Below are positions 36,083 through 43,853 of a stretch of DNA of 64,000 nucleotides, piece after piece. Made by a program: the position numbers and the translations under genes. Numbering within the stretch: the first letter of the stretch is position 1; each line of letters opens with the position of its first letter. Below the pieces are notes generated by a model. That model did no database searches and was not told the origin of the DNA. It worked only from the letters and a program-made list of their open reading frames with translations. The stretch covers positions 1 through 64,000 of the forward strand of contig JANQFL010000066.1 in the NCBI GenBank assembly GCA_028277845.1. The letters run 5' to 3'. This DNA comes from Sneathiellales bacterium (GTDB lineage: Bacteria; Pseudomonadota; Alphaproteobacteria; JANQFL01).

Positions 36083-36325
36083 ATGGCCCTGATGATTACC
36101 GAAGACTGCACCAACTGCGATGCGTGCGTCGAACCCTGCCCGAACGATGCCATCACGGCCGGCGACGACATCTACGTCATCGACGCCTTCAAGTGCACCG
36201 AATGCGTCGGCGCCGAGGACGAGCCCCAATGCATGCTCGTCTGCCCGGCCGACTGCATCGTGCCCAACCCGGAATTCGAGGAAAGTGAAGACGAGTTGAT
36301 GGCCAAATACGAATCGCTGCACTGA
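36083..36325 (+). CDS. fdx: 2[4Fe-4S] ferredoxin (electron donor to benzoyl-CoA reductase)
   Basis: An 80-residue ferredoxin. Cluster I ligands are C9, C12, C15 and C19 (CTNCDACVEPCP); cluster II ligands are C38 and C41, then after 8 residues C50 and C54, with C58 following. The 8-residue loop between the Cys pairs and the C-terminal extension are those of Alvin-type ferredoxins used by BCR. AGGAGG at 36071-36076 precedes the ATG. Its 3' end and terminator are repeated about 1.07 kb downstream as a fragment, and the gap between holds unrelated AT-rich DNA. Confidence 0.93.
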   Translation: MALMITEDCTNCDACVEPCPNDAITAGDDIYVIDAFKCTECVGAEDEPQCMLVCPADCIVPNPEFEESEDELMAKYESLH

Positions 36326-36472
36326 CAGCGATATAGACGTCTGCCCGGCGCAGGGATGTCATGCCCTCTGCGCAGGATGCAGATTGCGGTGTGCCGCTCG
36401 AGTCTTTCCGAAGCCCCGGAATCGACGCACACCCGGTGCTCCCGGATCCCTCAGGATTCGGGAGCATTTTTT
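36228..36472 (+). repeat. direct repeat: fdx 3' end plus terminator, intact copy
   Basis: About 245 bp covering the last 31 codons of fdx, 112 bp of downstream DNA and the hairpin terminator. It matches 37296-37547 closely along its length, including noncoding blocks such as GATGCAGATTGCGGTGTGCC. Within the coding part the copies differ at 29 of 31 residues by nothing or by synonymous changes. Confidence 0.88.
36438..36472. terminator. terminator downstream of fdx
   Basis: Arms GCTCCCGGATC (36438-36448) and GATTCGGGAGC (36455-36465), one mismatch, then A and six T. On the other strand an A-run precedes it. The reading frame of the leftward membrane-protein gene closes inside this hairpin (stop at 36451-36453). 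Confidence 0.85.
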
Positions 36473-37185
36473 AGTATGTCGGTGATTCTTGGATATTTCA
36501 TACCGTACGGATATCGGACGTAGCTCCGACCGAAGAATGTCGTCGCAAATCCCCGATAAACGAAATCATAAGTGAGGTGTTTCGATACGTACGAATCGGG
36601 TTCCCTTACATCTCTGATAGTTCTTTTTGTCTTGGCCGTTTTTACAAAGAAGTTCTCTTCAGTCTCTTCAGTAATAGTGACTTCATAGTCGGACTGAAAT
36701 TCGTCTATTTTTGTCGTTGCGATACAGTAGTCGTTCACTCTCTTTTTTGTCCTTTCCGTCGGCGTGGTGCGCAGCCACAGGTCATAGGCGTTGCAATCCT
36801 TGTCAGGTTGTTTCGTCAATGAAAAACGAAAATTTCCTTTCCCTTCCACGAGATCGACGATGCTGTGTCTGGTCGATTCGTTTTCGACAAATCGATAGGA
36901 GCCATCTTCAAGCAAGAGCTTGCAAGTCCTGCCGCATCCCGATCCTTGGCGGAGAATGATGGATTCGACACCAGTTGCTGTGCGCATCGTCTCAATTATG
37001 GGTGCGTCTCCTGCCCGTTCGATGTAGGCCGGGTAAAATTCACTCATGCCGACGCGTTCGAGGAACGGATAAAGAAACAACATCGTGCCGATCAGCATTC
37101 TGATCCACGTTCGTCTGATAAAGATTTTCAGTATCGATGTGATGAAAAAGATGACGGCGAAATATAGAACAAAAAGCAATGTCAT
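36451..37185 (-). CDS. hypothetical membrane protein, 244 residues
   Basis: No recognised family. Two N-terminal membrane helices are clear (about 2-23, FVLYFAVIFFITSILKIF, and 28-46, IRMLIGTMLFLYPFLER). A soluble domain of about 195 residues follows, mixed-charge and beta-rich, with a Cys pair (GSGCGRTCKLLL) and conserved-looking SYVRYPYGMKYPRI near the end. The protein ends KNAPES, encoded by the fdx terminator hairpin, so its 3' end was shaped by the junction. The base composition is AT-rich against neighbours. It lies between two copies of the fdx 3' end, which suggests acquisition as cargo. Confidence 0.6.
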   Translation of the reverse strand: MTLLFVLYFAVIFFITSILKIFIRRTWIRMLIGTMLFLYPFLERVGMSEFYPAYIERAGDAPIIETMRTATGVESIILRQGSGCGRTCKLLLEDGSYRFVENESTRHSIVDLVEGKGNFRFSLTKQPDKDCNAYDLWLRTTPTERTKKRVNDYCIATTKIDEFQSDYEVTITEETEENFFVKTAKTKRTIRDVREPDSYVSKHLTYDFVYRGFATTFFGRSYVRYPYGMKYPRITDILKNAPES

Positions 37186-37299
37186 CAGTCAGTCCACGAG
37201 CAGAAGGCCGGCGGCATCGTAGTCGTTGCGCGCGCCGTCCGTCAAAGCCGGTTGTAGGCGTGAGTGCTCGCACTTGACTGAGTAACTAGTGGGCCGCGA

Positions 37300-37395
37300 T
37301 GCCAGCTCATCTGCCCGGCAGACTGCATCGTGCCCAACCCGGAATTCGAGGAATCGGAAGACGAGTTGATGGCCAAATACGAGTCGCTGCACTGA
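37300..37395 (+). pseudogene. fdx 3' fragment (31 codons)
   Basis: TGC at 37300 to TGA at 37393-37395 encodes CQLICPADCIVPN and the rest of the ferredoxin C-terminus. Only two residues differ from fdx (Met to Gln, Val to Ile), while several codons differ silently, including a serine written AGT in fdx and TCG here. Such a serine switch needs two substitutions and indicates that this copy evolved under selection as a functional gene elsewhere. It has no start codon and is not expressed as a ferredoxin. Confidence 0.85.
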
Positions 37396-37512
37396 TCGCA
37401 GTGTAGAGAATTTCTGCCCGGCGCCGGGAAGTCATGCCCTCGGTGCACGGATGCAGATTGCGGTGTGCCACTCGAGTCTTTCCGAAGCCCCCGGTATCGA
37501 TGCATACCCGGT

Positions 37513-37546
37513 GCTCCCGGATCCCTCTGGATTCGGGAGCATTTTT
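37513..37546. terminator. terminator of the duplicated fdx fragment
   Basis: Arms GCTCCCGGATC (37513-37523) and GATTCGGGAGC (37530-37540), then ATTTTT. It separates the fragment from the kinase-helicase operon, whose last gene ends convergently at 37641. Confidence 0.82.
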
Positions 37547-37640: not shown

Positions 37641-39044
37641 TCATTTTCTGTTTGCGCCACTCCGTGCATCGGAAACATCGTTTGAAAATAGTTCTCTTTG
37701 CCGAGGGGCCGTATCAATCCGGTTCAGCATCTTATCAATTCTACGAATTAGATGCCTGATCTCCCGCAGATCATTTCGGTCAAACTCCACGTGTCTCAAC
37801 GGCCTTGTTTCCTTCACTTCACGACTTACACGAAAGTGGCCCGAAATCAGTGGAAAGATTTCAATAGAAACCAAATTGCTGTACTCAGTTCGAAATCCGA
37901 TATCGCGATGTCGGTCTTGGTGAAGTAACTCAAGCTCGTGGAATCCAATGTCTCGATCCAGTGAATTTATCTTTTTGTTCGGGGCCTCTATGTAACGAGC
38001 AAGTCGTCTTCCTAAGCAGTTGCCGGCTGTCAAAACATCTGTTTTTTTATGAAGGCCGCTGAGAAAGCCATACCAAATAACGGCTCCAGGAAATCTCTGT
38101 GCCGCTAAGTTTGCAAGTGGCATGTACAGTATTGATCCTTCACCTATCTTGGCGAGCAAGAATGCAACAAAAAATTCTGCAATTTCCTGACTAATCGATG
38201 TGGCCGAGTGGAAATCCAATACGATTTTGTTGAATAAGTTGACCCTCTCTTCTTTTGCGCCGCTCATCAGTTCGACAATTTCGTATATGTCAGCGACATC
38301 TTTTGAAACTATCTGTTTAATCTCTTGGCCCAATTCTTTGTGTTCTTCAAATTCATATATTGCCTCAAGAATTGTCGGATTTACAGAAACAGAGTTTCTA
38401 GCTCTCTTTGAAGAATTTGTTCTAGATAGATCAGCGTAGGCCATAATATTTGACCATACGTGGAAGCTGTTTTCTGGTCGTATATTTAGTTTGCTGGGGA
38501 GCAATCCAACTAGCTCCCTAGATCTAATCCAACGCCAGGATAGTTCCTCGGATACTTCATGATGATATCCACTGTATATTGCCTGTGCCATGCAATATGA
38601 GAGTGTCGCAAAGCAGCTCTGGAGAGTGACAACTTCGACTCCACCGTCACGAAGTCCCGACTGAACATACGCTTCCGATAAAACTGCACCTGTGGCTGCG
38701 TTTAGTACGTGTTCGTTGCTCGGTGAGGAAGAAAATCTCTTTTGAAGAGAATCAAATTCATCTGTGCTAATGACGTTAAAGAACGCACTAAAAGGAAAAT
38801 GTGTTCCAATATATGTCGCTGTATATGAGAGGAACTCGCGAATAGACTCTTCGTCTACAACGAACGCATCTGGGCGGACGCTGTTATCTTTGGGATCATT
38901 TAACCAAACAGCGCCAATAATGGATGCTGATAACTTTAGACTCTTCGAGGTTGCATTTTTTTGTAAGCGCTTAGGTTCAGGGTAAACTTGGTGCGCAATC
39001 AGATTTACAAATTCGTCTCGGTTTATTGGGGACCAGTACATCAT
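37641..39044 (-). CDS. unknown 467-residue protein, third gene of the kinase-helicase operon
   Basis: I do not recognise a family. It is largely helical by composition, with no signal peptide or membrane segment, an N-terminal MYWSPINRDEFVNLIAHQVY, an internal aromatic/Cys-rich stretch (SCFATLSYCMAQAIYSGYHH) and a basic C-terminal helix (DLREIRHLIRRIDKMLNRID). A SLDRDIGFHELELLHQDRHR stretch is charged and His-rich. The start ATG overlaps the helicase stop in ATGA, so it is translationally coupled and belongs to the same system. The base composition is AT-rich like its partners. It may be the effector or sensor, but nothing in the sequence settles that. Confidence 0.7.
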   Translation of the reverse strand: MMYWSPINRDEFVNLIAHQVYPEPKRLQKNATSKSLKLSASIIGAVWLNDPKDNSVRPDAFVVDEESIREFLSYTATYIGTHFPFSAFFNVISTDEFDSLQKRFSSSPSNEHVLNAATGAVLSEAYVQSGLRDGGVEVVTLQSCFATLSYCMAQAIYSGYHHEVSEELSWRWIRSRELVGLLPSKLNIRPENSFHVWSNIMAYADLSRTNSSKRARNSVSVNPTILEAIYEFEEHKELGQEIKQIVSKDVADIYEIVELMSGAKEERVNLFNKIVLDFHSATSISQEIAEFFVAFLLAKIGEGSILYMPLANLAAQRFPGAVIWYGFLSGLHKKTDVLTAGNCLGRRLARYIEAPNKKINSLDRDIGFHELELLHQDRHRDIGFRTEYSNLVSIEIFPLISGHFRVSREVKETRPLRHVEFDRNDLREIRHLIRRIDKMLNRIDTAPRQRELFSNDVSDARSGANRK

Positions 39045-40210
39045 GAGCCTGCTTTAAATAGGTCGTTGAGAGATGGTTTGACTGGAACTCTTTCGACCGA
39101 AGAGACGGCGTTTTCAATATACCCTGGCAGACTGCCACTATGGTGCAATGTGAGAGATGTTTTAGCCCGTGTAACACCGGTATAAATCAACCTTTTTTGC
39201 TTGGCTTTGAATTTTCTGACTTGTTCAGCCCCGGCTATATGCAAGGCTCTGAATTCCATCCCCTTCGTTCCATGTAATGTTGTCACGTATATTTTCTTTT
39301 CTGGATCCAACTGGGAATATCCTGTTTTGAAAGTCTGAAGCTGAGCACTGTTAGCCAGTGGCGAGTTACGAATAACTTCCCAAACCGCCTCCAATTCTCG
39401 ATGCCTGGGACAAGCAACTCCAATTAGTTCGCCGGGATAGGCCAGTAACTGCGTCTCCAATTGAGCGATAATTTTCTCAGCTTGTTCCTCGATTGTATCT
39501 GATTGCACTGATTCAACGGAGGAAGGGTTTGAAGTCTCGTCATATTGTGAGGTGCTTTCCAAGCCATTTGGTGAATCAAGGTTATTACGGATTGAATCCG
39601 CTACTCGACAAATCTTGCGCCCGTTCCTGTAATGATATTTTAGCGGAGGAGCCTCTTTGCAATAGTTCTTTAGTTGATCGATTCCATCTTTTTCGTCGTA
39701 TATTTGCTGCTGGTCGTCTCCAACGGCGAATATTCTTTTACCTAAGCTCCTAAATATGTCTATTTCTTCTGAAGTGTAGTCTTGTGCTTCATCAATTAAT
39801 AGGCAATCGTATCTATCAATGGCTCCTTTTTCGGCAATCAACTTCTTGACTTTTTCTGTTGCATCTTTCTGCTGTTCTTGGAAGCTGCCGCTACTACTAG
39901 TGAATGATTCACCATTCTCCTGAATCACCCCTATGCACCAATGTAGGTATGTCTGAATTTTTTCACTTGCGAAATCGTAATGTCTAACCCCGGATGATAA
40001 AAACTCCTTTAGTGTCCTGTTATAAGTAATAATCGCAAGATTATGCTTTCCATTTAAATGAAGGTAGGTCGCACGTAATATCAGCAAATTGGTTTTACCA
40101 GAGCCGGGTGGTCCGGCGATTAAATGATCTTCTTCTGTAGACAAGTCGTTAATAATTGCCTGTTGATCTTCATCTAATTCACTAGGATCTGTCCACCAAC
40201 CGCTATCCAC
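39041..40210 (-). CDS. compact UvrD/Rep-like superfamily 1 helicase or ATPase
   Basis: A 389-residue SF1A helicase core. Motifs in order are Q (LDEDQQAII, 12-20), Walker A (GPPGSGKT, 33-40), Walker B (LLIDEAQDYT, 137-146), motif III (GDDQQQIY, 164-171), a YRNGRKI motif IV region (194-200), motif V (TTLHGTKGMEF, 310-320) and motif VI (IYTGVTRAKT, 342-351). At about half the length of UvrD it lacks the large 1B/2B insertions, suggesting a signalling or remodelling ATPase rather than a processive helicase. The GTG start lies inside the kinase gene (8-base overlap), and the stop overlaps the third gene. AT-rich composition. Confidence 0.85.
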   Translation of the reverse strand: MDSGWWTDPSELDEDQQAIINDLSTEEDHLIAGPPGSGKTNLLILRATYLHLNGKHNLAIITYNRTLKEFLSSGVRHYDFASEKIQTYLHWCIGVIQENGESFTSSSGSFQEQQKDATEKVKKLIAEKGAIDRYDCLLIDEAQDYTSEEIDIFRSLGKRIFAVGDDQQQIYDEKDGIDQLKNYCKEAPPLKYHYRNGRKICRVADSIRNNLDSPNGLESTSQYDETSNPSSVESVQSDTIEEQAEKIIAQLETQLLAYPGELIGVACPRHRELEAVWEVIRNSPLANSAQLQTFKTGYSQLDPEKKIYVTTLHGTKGMEFRALHIAGAEQVRKFKAKQKRLIYTGVTRAKTSLTLHHSGSLPGYIENAVSSVERVPVKPSLNDLFKAGS

Positions 40211-41606
40211 TGTTCACACCTCTTATATGCAACCACTCCGTTTCGCTATTTTCAACTGCTGATCGATTTTGGACCGCGTCAATCAGCTCGAAGATGTACG
40301 ACTCTAAACTTGAAAATATTGCGTCACCATCATACGGCCCTTGAAAAATCTGATCTGCGACATCCGAGTTAAACTTAGATGGCCGAGTTCCCCGAGCCGC
40401 ACAGGCCGTGATAGTGATTATTTTTGCAGCAATGTCTTCTAGAACGACACTCAATATACAGTTCACGGAATCAAATACTAATCCGCGTTCAAAAGCATCA
40501 AAGGTAATGAAAATTTGACATTCTGGATCAGCTGTTCGGTTGACGAACACTTGACCTCTCGGTAACGCACTTGAACTCGCCCTTATTGAACTTACTGATG
40601 CTTTTATAAATTCGGTTGTTTCGCGCAGTAGTTCTTTGTCGACCTCATCACTTTTGTTCTGGGATTCGTCAATGTCTTCAGAAATTTCTCTAGAGTCACG
40701 AATTCGATTCAGTACGCGCTGCTGTGCGGATGATGTCTCCTCAACTGTTTCCTGTTTTTCGAAATCGGACCAGTTCACTAGTTCCAAACGTTTTCGCCAG
40801 TCTTTTAAAAGGCATCGTGCAGCAAGACTTTTCAGTTTTTGTGAAACTAGTTCATTTGCTATCGCCGGACTTTCGTTTTGTACTGCATTGACGAGGCGGG
40901 CATACGGGATCTTGTATTCTTCAAATAGCGGCTTTTTAGTAATTAGGTCATGTAGTACTCCGCCGATCTGATAGAACGTTAAAGCGCGCCAACCTTCTGT
41001 GCTGTCTTCTTCTTGGCGCAGAAGAAATTCGGGTGAGCTATATTGCAAAGTGCCAACAAATTCTTGTACACCACCATCATCTGTAAGACTTCCGTCACCA
41101 AAAGGCCTTAATACTCCTAAATCCAAAAGAACTAGCTTTTGGAAGTCGTCTAGCACAACAATATTTTCGGGTTTGATATCTCTGTGACAGATTTCTAAAT
41201 CTTCAAGAAATTGGGCGGCAGAGGCTAACTGATTCAACAATATCGGTATGCGATCATAAGGTATATCTTTGAGCGCTTGAGCAATGTTCGGGCCTCGCAG
41301 ATATTCCATTGCTATGAAGTAGTAGTTTGTTTTTTCGTCCAATCCTCCATCGAATATCTTGACAAGATTTGGATGGTCCTGGCCAACAAGCGAACGTTCT
41401 CGTTCAATGCGACCAATTTGAGTGTCGTCTCCATACTTTTCGATCAGCTCATCATCAAATATCTTTATCGCTGCGTTTTGCCCTTCTTTTGAAGCTTCAA
41501 ATACTGCAGCGGATTTTCCGCAGTTGATGTATTTCTCAATCGTCCATCCATCAACGTCATTGCCGACCAACTTGTTTGTCAGTTCTGCTGCTTTGACCTT
41601 ATCCAT
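40203..41606 (-). CDS. Hanks-type serine/threonine protein kinase with C-terminal extension
   Basis: A 467-residue protein. The kinase domain spans about 22-280: a modified glycine loop (INCGKSAAVFEA, 28-39), the ATP lysine in AIKIF (K48), a helix-C Glu near 69, the catalytic loop HRDIKPEN (141-148), DLG instead of DFG (162-164), SPE instead of APE (191-193), and YQIGGVLHDLI. Catalytic residues are intact. Residues 285-345 are charged and probably coiled, and 345-467 form an uncharacterised domain (VFVNRTADPECQIFITFDAF). No membrane helix or PASTA domain. First gene of an overlapping three-gene AT-rich operon; phosphorylation-triggered defence is my inference. Confidence 0.85.
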   Translation of the reverse strand: MDKVKAAELTNKLVGNDVDGWTIEKYINCGKSAAVFEASKEGQNAAIKIFDDELIEKYGDDTQIGRIERERSLVGQDHPNLVKIFDGGLDEKTNYYFIAMEYLRGPNIAQALKDIPYDRIPILLNQLASAAQFLEDLEICHRDIKPENIVVLDDFQKLVLLDLGVLRPFGDGSLTDDGGVQEFVGTLQYSSPEFLLRQEEDSTEGWRALTFYQIGGVLHDLITKKPLFEEYKIPYARLVNAVQNESPAIANELVSQKLKSLAARCLLKDWRKRLELVNWSDFEKQETVEETSSAQQRVLNRIRDSREISEDIDESQNKSDEVDKELLRETTEFIKASVSSIRASSSALPRGQVFVNRTADPECQIFITFDAFERGLVFDSVNCILSVVLEDIAAKIITITACAARGTRPSKFNSDVADQIFQGPYDGDAIFSSLESYIFELIDAVQNRSAVENSETEWLHIRGVNSG

Positions 41607-41807
41607 GGCTCATTATCTTGCAGAGGAGTTCTGTGGCAAATTTAACGCGAATAAACGCCGCTATCTACATCTGTATGTGCTGCAGAGGTTGAGAACACAC
41701 TTGTGTTGAATACCGTGTCGCAGATTGGTGTCGTCGCGCTCTGGATTTGGAGGCTCCTTAGTTCCTGCATTTGGTCCTGCAAATCGAAGATGGACGTCGC
41801 ATTTCCC
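41607..41807. other. intergenic DNA between the kinase start and the GNAT-fragment terminator
   Basis: About 200 bp that must hold the promoter of the leftward kinase operon. I see no clear -35/-10 pair and only a weak GAG before the kinase ATG. A 62-codon leftward frame (41642-41830) begins in the terminator hairpin and has no good ribosome site, so I do not call it. Confidence 0.4.
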
Positions 41808-41900
41808 CCAAAACAAAACCCCCGGCCCACATGGATCAGTGGCGACCGGGGGAGTTCGAGGGAGGAAAGAACGCTACGGGTACGCGGGGGATGGGTGCCC

Positions 41901-42141
41901 CTAGACCTCGCGGGCGAAGACCAGCCGTTGCGAGGGTTCGAAGCCGCAGGAGTAGAGGAAGCCGAGCAGATCGAAGTTCTCGCGGGCGACCTGGCCTTCG
42001 CCCCGACGAAGCGGCTCTCGCCTCTGCGAAGCCTCCGGCGGAGCCTGGGACGGCCGCGCAGGCTGGGTCTCCAGCGTCTCCACCTGCAGGCCCGAGAGGT
42101 TGACCATGAGCTGGCTCAACAGCGCGTGGCCGATGCCCTTG
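41901..42141 (-). pseudogene. GNAT acetyltransferase 3' fragment with in-frame insertion
   Basis: Reads SQLMVNLSGLQVETLETQ, then 24 extra residues from the insertion, then VARENFDLLGFLYSCGFEPS and the same C-terminus and TAG as the intact gene at 43290-43853. The 5' two thirds, including the acetyl-CoA site, are missing. Differences from the intact gene are nearly all synonymous (for example Asn AAC/AAT and Asp GAT/GAC), so this end came from a diverged functional allele. Confidence 0.85.
41995..42066. other. 72-bp in-frame insertion in the GNAT fragment
   Basis: The intact GNAT gene reads straight through where this segment interrupts the fragment. The insert is 72 bp, keeps the reading frame, and has CTGG at both borders (41991-41994 and 42063-42066). 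Internal hairpin-forming pieces include CTTCG/CGAAG (41996-42000 with 42006-42010). The pattern is that of a small palindromic mobile element inserted in protein-coding sequence. Confidence 0.6.
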
Positions 42142-42155
42142 CTAACGGAGATTTC

Positions 42156-42500
42156 TCACGCCCTTTTTGCGCGTTTCTTTTCATCGTTTTCCATGGCAGC
42201 AAGACCGCTTAATTCGATCGGCGGACGGTCGGGGAATTCTGCGACGAAATGCAGCTTGCCGCCCATCGCCTCGACATAACCCCGCAGAGTTGAAATCAGC
42301 AGATCGGACCGTTGTTCGATACGCGAAACGTTTTCCTGTTTGATGCCCAGTTTCTTGGCGACGGATTGTTGCGTGCGTTTGCGGGCCTTGCGCAAATCCC
42401 GCAGGGACAATTCCTCGGCAATCAGTTCTTCCGCCCGCGCCTCCACGGTCGCCCGGCGCTGCTTGGGCAGGTCCCGCATTCTTTGCTTCAATGTGCTCAT
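42156..42500 (-). CDS. XRE-family antitoxin (HigA-like)
   Basis: A 114-residue protein with a helix-turn-helix at about 45-70 (TQQSVAKKLGIKQENVSRIE) after a helical N-terminus, and a C-terminal strand region (GGKLHFVAEFPDRPPIEL) likely to bind the toxin. It is second in the operon, and its ATG overlaps the toxin stop in ATGA, the toxin-first order of higBA modules. It should repress its own promoter through the palindrome at 42891-42910. Its stop lies next to the truncated GNAT fragment. Confidence 0.85.
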   Translation of the reverse strand: MSTLKQRMRDLPKQRRATVEARAEELIAEELSLRDLRKARKRTQQSVAKKLGIKQENVSRIEQRSDLLISTLRGYVEAMGGKLHFVAEFPDRPPIELSGLAAMENDEKKRAKRA

Positions 42501-42868
42501 GTCTTTTTCCCGCCTTTCGGCTTCAATCTCTCAAGGTGCGCGGCGTATCGGGCATCGGCTTTGCCGATGAGCGCCTTGTAGAAACGCTTTTCGCCGCCGC
42601 CCGATTTATCTCCCGCCACCAGCAGCACCGCCCGCCTTTTCGGATCGAAGGCGAAGGCGACGCGCCAGGCGCCGTTCGCTGCCTGGAACCGTAGTTCCTT
42701 CATGTTCGCATGGCGCGAACCGTTCAGGGTGTCCACCCGGGGCCGTCCGAGCGTCGGTCCGAATTCCTCCAGAAGCCGTGCATGGGCGAGAATCTCGTTC
42801 TGTACGGTCTCCGGCAACGCATCGAACTCCGGATCGAACGCCTCGTCAAACGCGACGTCCCAACTCAC
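42497..42868 (-). CDS. RelE/HigB-like (Gp49 family) toxin
   Basis: A 123-residue type II toxin with a GTG start. The family pattern is clear: FDEAFDPEFDALPETVQNEI, LLEEFGPTLGRPRVDTLNGS, HANMKELRFQAANGAWRVAF and FDPKRRAVLLVAGDKSGG, then FYKALIGKADARYAAHL. Gp49-type toxins are ribosome-dependent mRNA interferases. Complete and paired with an antitoxin. It is flanked by the two GNAT 3'-end copies, so it travelled as cargo. Confidence 0.85.
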   Translation of the reverse strand: MSWDVAFDEAFDPEFDALPETVQNEILAHARLLEEFGPTLGRPRVDTLNGSRHANMKELRFQAANGAWRVAFAFDPKRRAVLLVAGDKSGGGEKRFYKALIGKADARYAAHLERLKPKGGKKT

Positions 42869-42910: not shown

Positions 42911-43052
42911 GCGTTTGGAATCATAATTCTGATTGATTGACGCTATCCTAAGCCACTCGCCGAATCGATTGAATTGGGTCTATTTTACTCGCGTTTGAGG
43001 GCTGGGTCACGGATTGTCCCATCTTGGACCAATCGCCCAGTCTTCCACCAGA

Positions 43053-43092
43053 AACAAAACCCCCGGCCCGAATCATTCTTCGGGGCCGGGGG
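43053..43092 (-). terminator. terminator of the intact GNAT gene
   Basis: On the minus strand the stem CCCCCGGCCC/GGGCCGGGGG (43060-43092), extended by CGAA/TTCG, is followed by TTTTGTTT (43053-43059). It lies about 200 bp after the GNAT stop, because repeat DNA intervenes. Confidence 0.82.
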
Positions 43093-43187
43093 AGTTCGAG
43101 GGAGGAAAGAACGCTACGTGTACACTTGGGAACGGGTGTCATTTAATTGAGCGGCAATGATCGGGATCGATCATTGCCTTACCTCAG

Positions 43188-43260
43188 ACGCCGGGCGCGG
43201 CCCTCCGGGCCGCTTGGCTCACGCCGCATAAGCGGCGCGGCGCAGTCGCGCCGGCCAAGC
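43188..43260. repeat. intergenic palindromic repeat, short copy
   Basis: Starts ACGCCGGGCGCG, contains GCTTGGCTCACGCCGC (43212 onward) and ends GCGCCGGCCAAGC. The arms GCTTGGC (43212-43218) and GCCAAGC (43254-43260) are inverted. The same start, core and end recur at 44575-44695 with a longer middle. Confidence 0.65.
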
Positions 43261-43289
43261 TTCGATGCAACGAATACATCGAAACTTGG

Positions 43290-43853
43290 TTAGACCTCGC
43301 GGGCAAACACCAGCCGTTGCGAGGGTTCGAAGCCGCAGGAGTAGAGGAAGCCCAGCAGGTCGAAATTCTCACGGGCGACCTGGGTCTCCAGGGTTTCCAC
43401 CTGCAGGCCCGAGAGATTGACCATGAGCTGGCTCAACAGCGCGTGGCCGATGCCCTTGCCGGCGAAGCCGGGGTCGACACCGACGGTGTCGATGACGGCG
43501 TTGGTTTCGGCCCGGCCGTAATCGCCGAAGTCGACCTTGGCCATGATGAAGCCGACGGGCTCGCCGCCCGGATTGCTCGAGCCGTCTTCCGGCGGCAATG
43601 CGACCAGGGAGACGCGCACGGCCGAGTCGTTCATGGCTTCGTCCAGCTTGCCGGCCAGGTAGGCCGAGCGGTCGTCGCCGGTGATCTTGCGGTCGATGCG
43701 GGCGACGGCGGCCAGGTCGCCGGCCTCCATGGTGCGCACCGGCACTTTATCCCTCGAAAGGGCGTCGAAGTCGTCGCCGTCGGGATCGGAATAGTCGGGT
43801 TCCAGTTCGGCGTCGGCCGGCATGGGGATGTGCAGGGATTTCTTGTCGGTCAT
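43290..43853 (-). CDS. GNAT family N-acetyltransferase
   Basis: A 187-residue acetyltransferase. After an acidic N-terminal extension (about 45 residues, ELEPDYSDPDGDDFDAL) comes the GNAT domain: VRTMEAGDLAAVARIDRKIT, motif A VIDTVGVDPGFAGKGIGHAL near 120-139, motif B SQLMVNLSGLQVETLETQV, and NFDLLGFLYSCGFEPSQ. The start is the ATG giving MTDKKS; an upstream frame extension is palindromic repeat DNA. It resembles the GNATs at 23.7 and 44.0 kb, so the benzoyl-CoA region holds three related acetyltransferases. Its 3' end has a truncated second copy at 41901-42141. Substrate unknown. Confidence 0.85.
   Translation of the reverse strand: MTDKKSLHIPMPADAELEPDYSDPDGDDFDALSRDKVPVRTMEAGDLAAVARIDRKITGDDRSAYLAGKLDEAMNDSAVRVSLVALPPEDGSSNPGGEPVGFIMAKVDFGDYGRAETNAVIDTVGVDPGFAGKGIGHALLSQLMVNLSGLQVETLETQVARENFDLLGFLYSCGFEPSQRLVFAREV

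Follow-up and report, generated by a model that had tools for sequence, protein, structure and literature searches.

A conserved three-gene cassette of a Ser/Thr kinase, a minimal UvrD-like helicase and a protein of unrecognised fold, predicted to serve in bacterial defence

A stretch of 64,000 nucleotides from a Sneathiellales bacterium (contig JANQFL010000066.1; this whole stretch is called the window here) carries three consecutive genes for a Hanks-type Ser/Thr kinase, a minimal UvrD-like helicase of superfamily 1 (SF1) and a 467-residue protein whose fold we could not recognise. The three genes stay together in distant hosts, and we are all but certain that they form a single functional system; judged by its genomic associations, this system is very probably a defence cassette. 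An earlier, sequence-only reading of the window had described three AT-rich genes that overlap by a few bases, and this description holds: the open reading frames (ORFs) are intact, those of kinase and helicase share 8 bp and those of helicase and third gene 4 bp, and the GC content of the trio is 42.9% as against 62.3% for the whole window.

When the third protein was used by itself in a scan across genomes, no matches were obtained; the kinase activation segment was therefore taken as the anchor, and was scanned against 84,980 species genomes, which returned 25 loci. In all 25, kinase, helicase and third gene follow each other in the same order and on the same strand, with junctions mostly between -8 and +14 bp. 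The hosts belong to the Pseudomonadota, Planctomycetota, Desulfuromonadales, Gemmatimonadota, Acidobacteriota, Myxococcota, Bacteroidota and Binatia and include a patescibacterium, a spread of about nine phyla, where several loci come from metagenome-assembled genomes and taxon labels are provisional. The same order and tight junctions across so many phyla place the association beyond chance. The helicase is frameshifted in one of the 25 loci, and in one (L026) a Mutator transposase lies between the helicase and a truncated third gene; the latter is an insertion sequence (IS) event with a broken third gene, and we do not count it as a separated third gene.

Searches anchored on the helicase and on the third protein were added to counter the bias of a single anchor. 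With tblastn, the third protein had found the same operon on a conjugative plasmid of Rhizobium leguminosarum, and the helicase had led to a Cupriavidus plasmid that carries the trio in this order too and on which the third gene (L003, 11149-12522) is only partly annotated, with ~242 of its 455 residues; such a mis-annotated start may hide the family. In sets of 399 and 385 genomes, the third-anchored search recovered a full trio (G731), a helicase-plus-third locus (G055) and the window's own genome. Among viral contigs, the helicase-anchored search gave six loci, four of them full trios; of the partial ones, one is truncated by the end of its contig after kinase and helicase, and one begins inside the helicase and runs into the third gene. 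No separated gene pairs were found in the helicase- or third-anchored searches, so that the conserved linkage, whose absence the sequence-only reading had named as evidence against a system, is seen from all three anchors. Three weaker helicase matches (1e-26 to 1e-32) were rejected as family members, being NERD-UvrD fusions with neither kinase nor third gene. The pairwise distances of the three proteins are also correlated (Spearman 0.53-0.61; none of 2000 permutations as high). Four IMG/VR contigs (L071, L072, L073, L074) represent a further branch of the trio, of greater divergence.

The G055 locus (L006, 8130-12306) departs from the standard layout: the kinase is replaced by a 269-residue protein with no Pfam match, and the helicase has a 270-residue N-terminal extension. 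From this variant, helicase and third protein look like the core of the system, and the exchange suggests that the signalling module can be swapped.

The proposed defence-type context is borne out by the neighbours, which are enriched in defence genes. At E<=1e-25, 118 PADLOC families were matched by 112 neighbouring ORFs and one by 112 control ORFs, a figure to be read as a contrast and not as a gene count, many of the 118 being overlapping models of the same proteins. The matches include Gabija (GajA, GajB), RmrA, DpdF, type I and type IIG restriction and a dGTPase; Hachiman adjoins the Rhizobium copy and RmrA the Cupriavidus copy. In two unambiguous IMG/VR prophages (L032, L033), the trio sits among terminase, scaffold/protease, portal and major capsid genes, in head-gene clusters of P2-like and Mu-like gene order. 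A site of this kind is typical for cargo that protects the lysogen; in related phages it might harbour further undescribed defence genes.

Residence on plasmids and prophages, together with a UvrD-like motor and the clamp-binding-like motif described below, could also be expected of an accessory module for replication, repair or fork restart that serves the mobile elements' own replication and has no part in defence. We regard this as quite improbable, given the strong co-occurrence with defence genes, the patchy distribution (2/385 and 2/399 genomes, the window's own included), the position of the prophage copies among head genes and away from replication genes, and the dedicated, apparently active kinase, which would be unusual for a repair helicase. 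The same conjugative plasmids and prophages raise the question of whether the target is plasmids, conjugation or competing elements instead of phages, since replisome-directed sensing would suit plasmids as well; this is unlikely, in that the neighbouring systems are mostly anti-phage and the cargo position in prophages is typical of superinfection exclusion. An addiction module akin to toxin-antitoxin systems, in which phosphorylation by the kinase neutralises or activates the third protein and the operon is selected for its own persistence, would be in keeping with a compact mobile operon that, in the window, has a toxin-antitoxin pair close by. That pair, which the sequence-only reading took as fitting defence, is real (Gp49 and HTH_3/HTH_37 domains) and lies upstream of the trio, but it is weak evidence for defence by itself and is not conserved beside the trio at other loci, which counts against addiction too; as the three genes are large and neither a short labile antitoxin nor a conserved regulator is present, we consider such a module very improbable.

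Several known defence systems share parts with the trio. Mokosh likewise combines a Ser/Thr kinase with a helicase against phages; there the kinase is joined to an RNA helicase, and a PLD domain may be present. In the trio, as the sequence-only reading had pointed out, kinase and helicase are separate genes and the helicase is UvrD-like and minimal; moreover, no PLD domain turned up, and the third gene is an unrelated one. Identity with Mokosh was rejected: MkoA profiles cover only residues 29-340 of the kinase, MkoA does not appear among the 25 best PADLOC matches of the helicase, and for the third protein there was no match at all. Among PADLOC profiles, the best kinase matches are those of PD-T4-6 (1e-32), which acts as a stand-alone kinase, and like PD-T4-6 and Stk2 the trio kinase is of Hanks type with intact catalytic residues. 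Stk2 is a stand-alone kinase that executes abortive infection (PMC6532042), whereas in every sampled locus helicase and third gene come after the trio kinase, and we rejected identity with this group on that ground.

On the helicase side, the closest relatives outside the family are NERD-UvrD fusions (PADLOC profile C3a187, 5.9e-25); these carry a NERD nuclease domain that the 389-residue helicase lacks, and their loci have neither the kinase nor the third gene. Gabija GajB (profile at 4e-21, with relatives in the PDB too) similarly provides a defence operon with a UvrD-like SF1 motor, but the trio has no GajA/OLD-TOPRIM nuclease partner; the third protein does not match GajA and the helicase falls below full GajB length, so Gabija was rejected; one trio locus has a complete Gabija next to it, as a system of its own. 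MADS (kinase MAD6) and BREX (PglW) also include defence-associated Hanks kinases. Here, the matches are at the level of the generic domain and other MADS or BREX genes are absent from the trio: NF047741 scores 46 bits against a cut-off of 460, and helicase and third gene were not identified as mad genes; PglW scores 28.5 bits against a cut-off of 990, and there are no pgl genes among the island ORFs read, which rejects BREX type 2.

We found no library entry, PDB sequence, fold or open-access paper that would assign the trio to a characterised system, in agreement with the proposal that it is undescribed; the literature covered was open access (closed-access papers and preprints lay outside the scope), and the trio is unnamed in the 2023-2026 libraries searched. 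Defence by kinase plus helicase has precedent, while for the architecture of the trio and for the family of its third protein we found none in that literature and those libraries.

The kinase of the window matches Pkinase and retains K48, HRD and N148, with DLG (D162) and SPE as variant motifs, as first read. K48 and HRD are invariant in 28 of 28 kinases, and the DxG motif is DLG in 21 and DFG in seven. With the helicase motifs conserved too (see below), both enzymes look catalytically intact. Following the kinase domain is a C-terminal domain that had been called new. Sequence searches gave it no match, and none supporting a KA1 assignment; in the AlphaFold2 model of the kinase (predicted local distance difference test, pLDDT, 85.5; predicted template modelling score, pTM, 0.62) its topology is like that of KA1 and the AMPK-alpha C-terminal domain, hence not obviously new. 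The best Foldseek matches of the kinase model are AMPK-alpha chains aligned over their full length, and CaMKII and MARK1-KA1 are also among the matches. The model suggests a KA1-like autoregulatory domain. Chorismate-mutase matches for this domain were dismissed (E about 0.8), and homology between it and the third protein was rejected.

The half-size UvrD-like ATPase of the sequence-only reading can be described more closely as a core 1A/2A motor, which accounts for its shortness. Motifs Q, I, Ia, II, III, IV, V and VI are conserved among the relatives and essentially invariant, and all SF1 motifs fit within 389 residues, with no accessory or nuclease domain. Its nearest relatives in sequence are NERD-UvrD, GajB, HelD and UvrD. 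Since the third protein has no nuclease match either, the trio indeed contains no recognised nuclease.

The third protein, which had been left unassigned, resisted assignment here as well. It has no match in Pfam, PADLOC or PDB sequences and only noise-level matches in NCBIfam, and its relatives give just isolated weak family matches. Its AlphaFold2 model is confident (pLDDT 84, pTM 0.82), yet Foldseek of the model against PDB and BFVD returned nothing at E<=0.001; an ADP-ribosylhydrolase-like fold was considered and dismissed (E>0.5, TM 0.27 or less). The protein evolves fastest of the three, with a mean identity of 23% compared to 39 and 41% for the other two, while E124, E265, W324, D365 and E370 are invariant in the family alignment, and the final ~20 residues are disordered (pLDDT<50).

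These properties bear on the suggestion, made from the sequence alone, that the third protein is the prime candidate for the effector. Its fast evolution and unrecognised fold, the invariant acidic residues E124, E265, D365 and E370, which could be catalytic, and its persistence at the locus where another protein stands in for the kinase would all suit an effector such as a new nuclease or toxic enzyme, with the helicase as DNA sensor and the kinase as a regulatory switch. Against this, there is no signature of a nuclease or other enzyme and no family or fold match, and the motif in the tail suits docking better than catalysis; a role as sensor or scaffold would account no less well for this motif and for the retention without kinase. 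The effector role is one candidate reading, which we rate as possible, with the odds leaning against it.

The disordered tail holds QRELF, a predicted sliding-clamp-binding motif of QxxLF type. The general bacterial motif is QxxLF (also QL[S/D]LF), in which position 3 is preferably D or S (PMC12309361), and a stricter consensus has an aliphatic residue at position 2 (PMC13254535); QRELF corresponds to the general form and lies in an accessible segment, as expected of a clamp client. The pattern Q..[LM][FY] occurs in 12 of 27 tails, compared with 0.55±0.73 in shuffled tails (maximum 4 in 2000 shuffles), and its frequency per residue is ~15-fold that in the kinases or helicases. It is found at two distinct tail positions, and tails found later contain QRDLY, QRDFF and QGDLY. 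In tails of the divergent branch (L071 to L074) the sequences QSLNL, QSMELF and DDLF occur, possible variants of the clamp motif. From these sequence patterns, we give even chances to the third protein docking on the replisome through the sliding clamp.

Taken together, we propose with nearly balanced odds that the trio is a mobile antiviral, or more broadly anti-mobile-element, cassette in which a clamp-docked sensor of helicase and third protein drives the kinase and ends in abortive infection. Helicase and third protein would form a DNA-engaged sensor, the third protein docking on the replisome by its tail motif, and the SF1 motor would probe DNA that is replicating or aberrant (phage). The kinase, probably restrained until then by its KA1-like C-terminal domain, would be released by a state specific to phage and would phosphorylate the third protein, host targets or both, so that replication or growth stops. 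The precedent of Stk2 makes a kinase executor plausible (PMC6532042), and we tentatively assign the output to the kinase and sensing to the other two. In its most specific form, an immunity that watches replication forks by means of a new-fold protein on the clamp, a minimal SF1 motor and signalling by a Ser/Thr kinase gated by a KA1-like domain, the proposal is speculative and rather unlikely to hold in every part.

A number of observations weigh against this scheme. The strict motif is missing from more than half of the tails, its position 2 is often R and therefore not the aliphatic residue preferred in the stricter consensus, and the shuffle statistics ignore the kinship of the sequences. 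The likeness to KA1 is one of Foldseek alignment extent, with a high root-mean-square deviation and no support from sequence. The control regions for the neighbour comparison were drawn from other genomes, of alphaproteobacterial class. Finally, the kinase-less G055 variant indicates that the kinase is not universally needed, and the kinase could serve as either regulator or effector.

Features of the cassette and its borders, with positions in the window
Feature	Position	Strand	Basis
Gene 1, Hanks-type Ser/Thr kinase, 467 aa	40203..41606	-	Pkinase 4e-26
Gene 2, minimal SF1A (UvrD-like) helicase/translocase, 389 aa, GTG start	39041..40210	-	UvrD/AAA_19/UvrD_C_2
Gene 3, 467-aa protein, unrecognised fold	37641..39044	-	No family match, AlphaFold2 model
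Kinase C-terminal domain, aa 319-460, helix-five strands-helix, KA1/AMPK-alphaCTD-like topology	40227..40652	-	DSSP of model, Foldseek
Helicase Walker A, GPPGSGKTN	40088..40114	-	Translation, conserved in relatives
Helicase Walker B, DEAQD	39779..39793	-	Translation, conserved in relatives
Predicted sliding-clamp-binding motif in disordered tail of third protein, QRELF (aa 449-453), QxxLF type	37686..37700	-	Consensus match
Duplicate of ferredoxin 3' end and terminator (source 36223-36471), one border of insert	37293..37546	+	87-98% identity
Duplicate of GNAT acetyltransferase 3' end (source 43043-43459), opposite border of insert	41803..42142	+	75-96% identity
HigBA-like toxin-antitoxin pair, context, outside cassette	42156..42868	-	Pfam Gp49 and HTH_3/HTH_37

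The recombination hotspot proposed for the window is supported at both borders of the insert, where the duplicated flanking fragments point to a site of rearrangement; the GNAT 3'-end copy adjoining the trio is a truncated pseudogene. The ferredoxin duplication marks what looks like an insertion hotspot, at the end of a gene cluster of benzoyl-CoA-reductase type. Enclosed by the two copies of the ferredoxin 3' end and terminator is an ORF (36451-37185) for a 244-residue membrane protein, which matches no family convincingly. We also looked for a fourth gene common to the loci and dismissed it, as the neighbours vary from locus to locus. On the Rhizobium plasmid, an FRG-domain gene truncated by an IS3 element directly follows the third gene (L002, 11361-11567); it was dismissed as a part of the system because of this truncation and its restriction to the Rhizobium copy, and an AAA ATPase beside the Cupriavidus copy was likewise set aside, as it is not seen at other loci.

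Phage replication as a trigger of bacterial immunity is more often inferred than demonstrated, and if the clamp motif works, the third protein would offer a direct handle on how bacteria might sense phage DNA replication. The size of the cassette, ~4 kb, makes it clonable for assay. As a compact and self-contained unit, it would extend bacterial immunity by a system with kinase signalling, together with a protein family of apparently novel fold.

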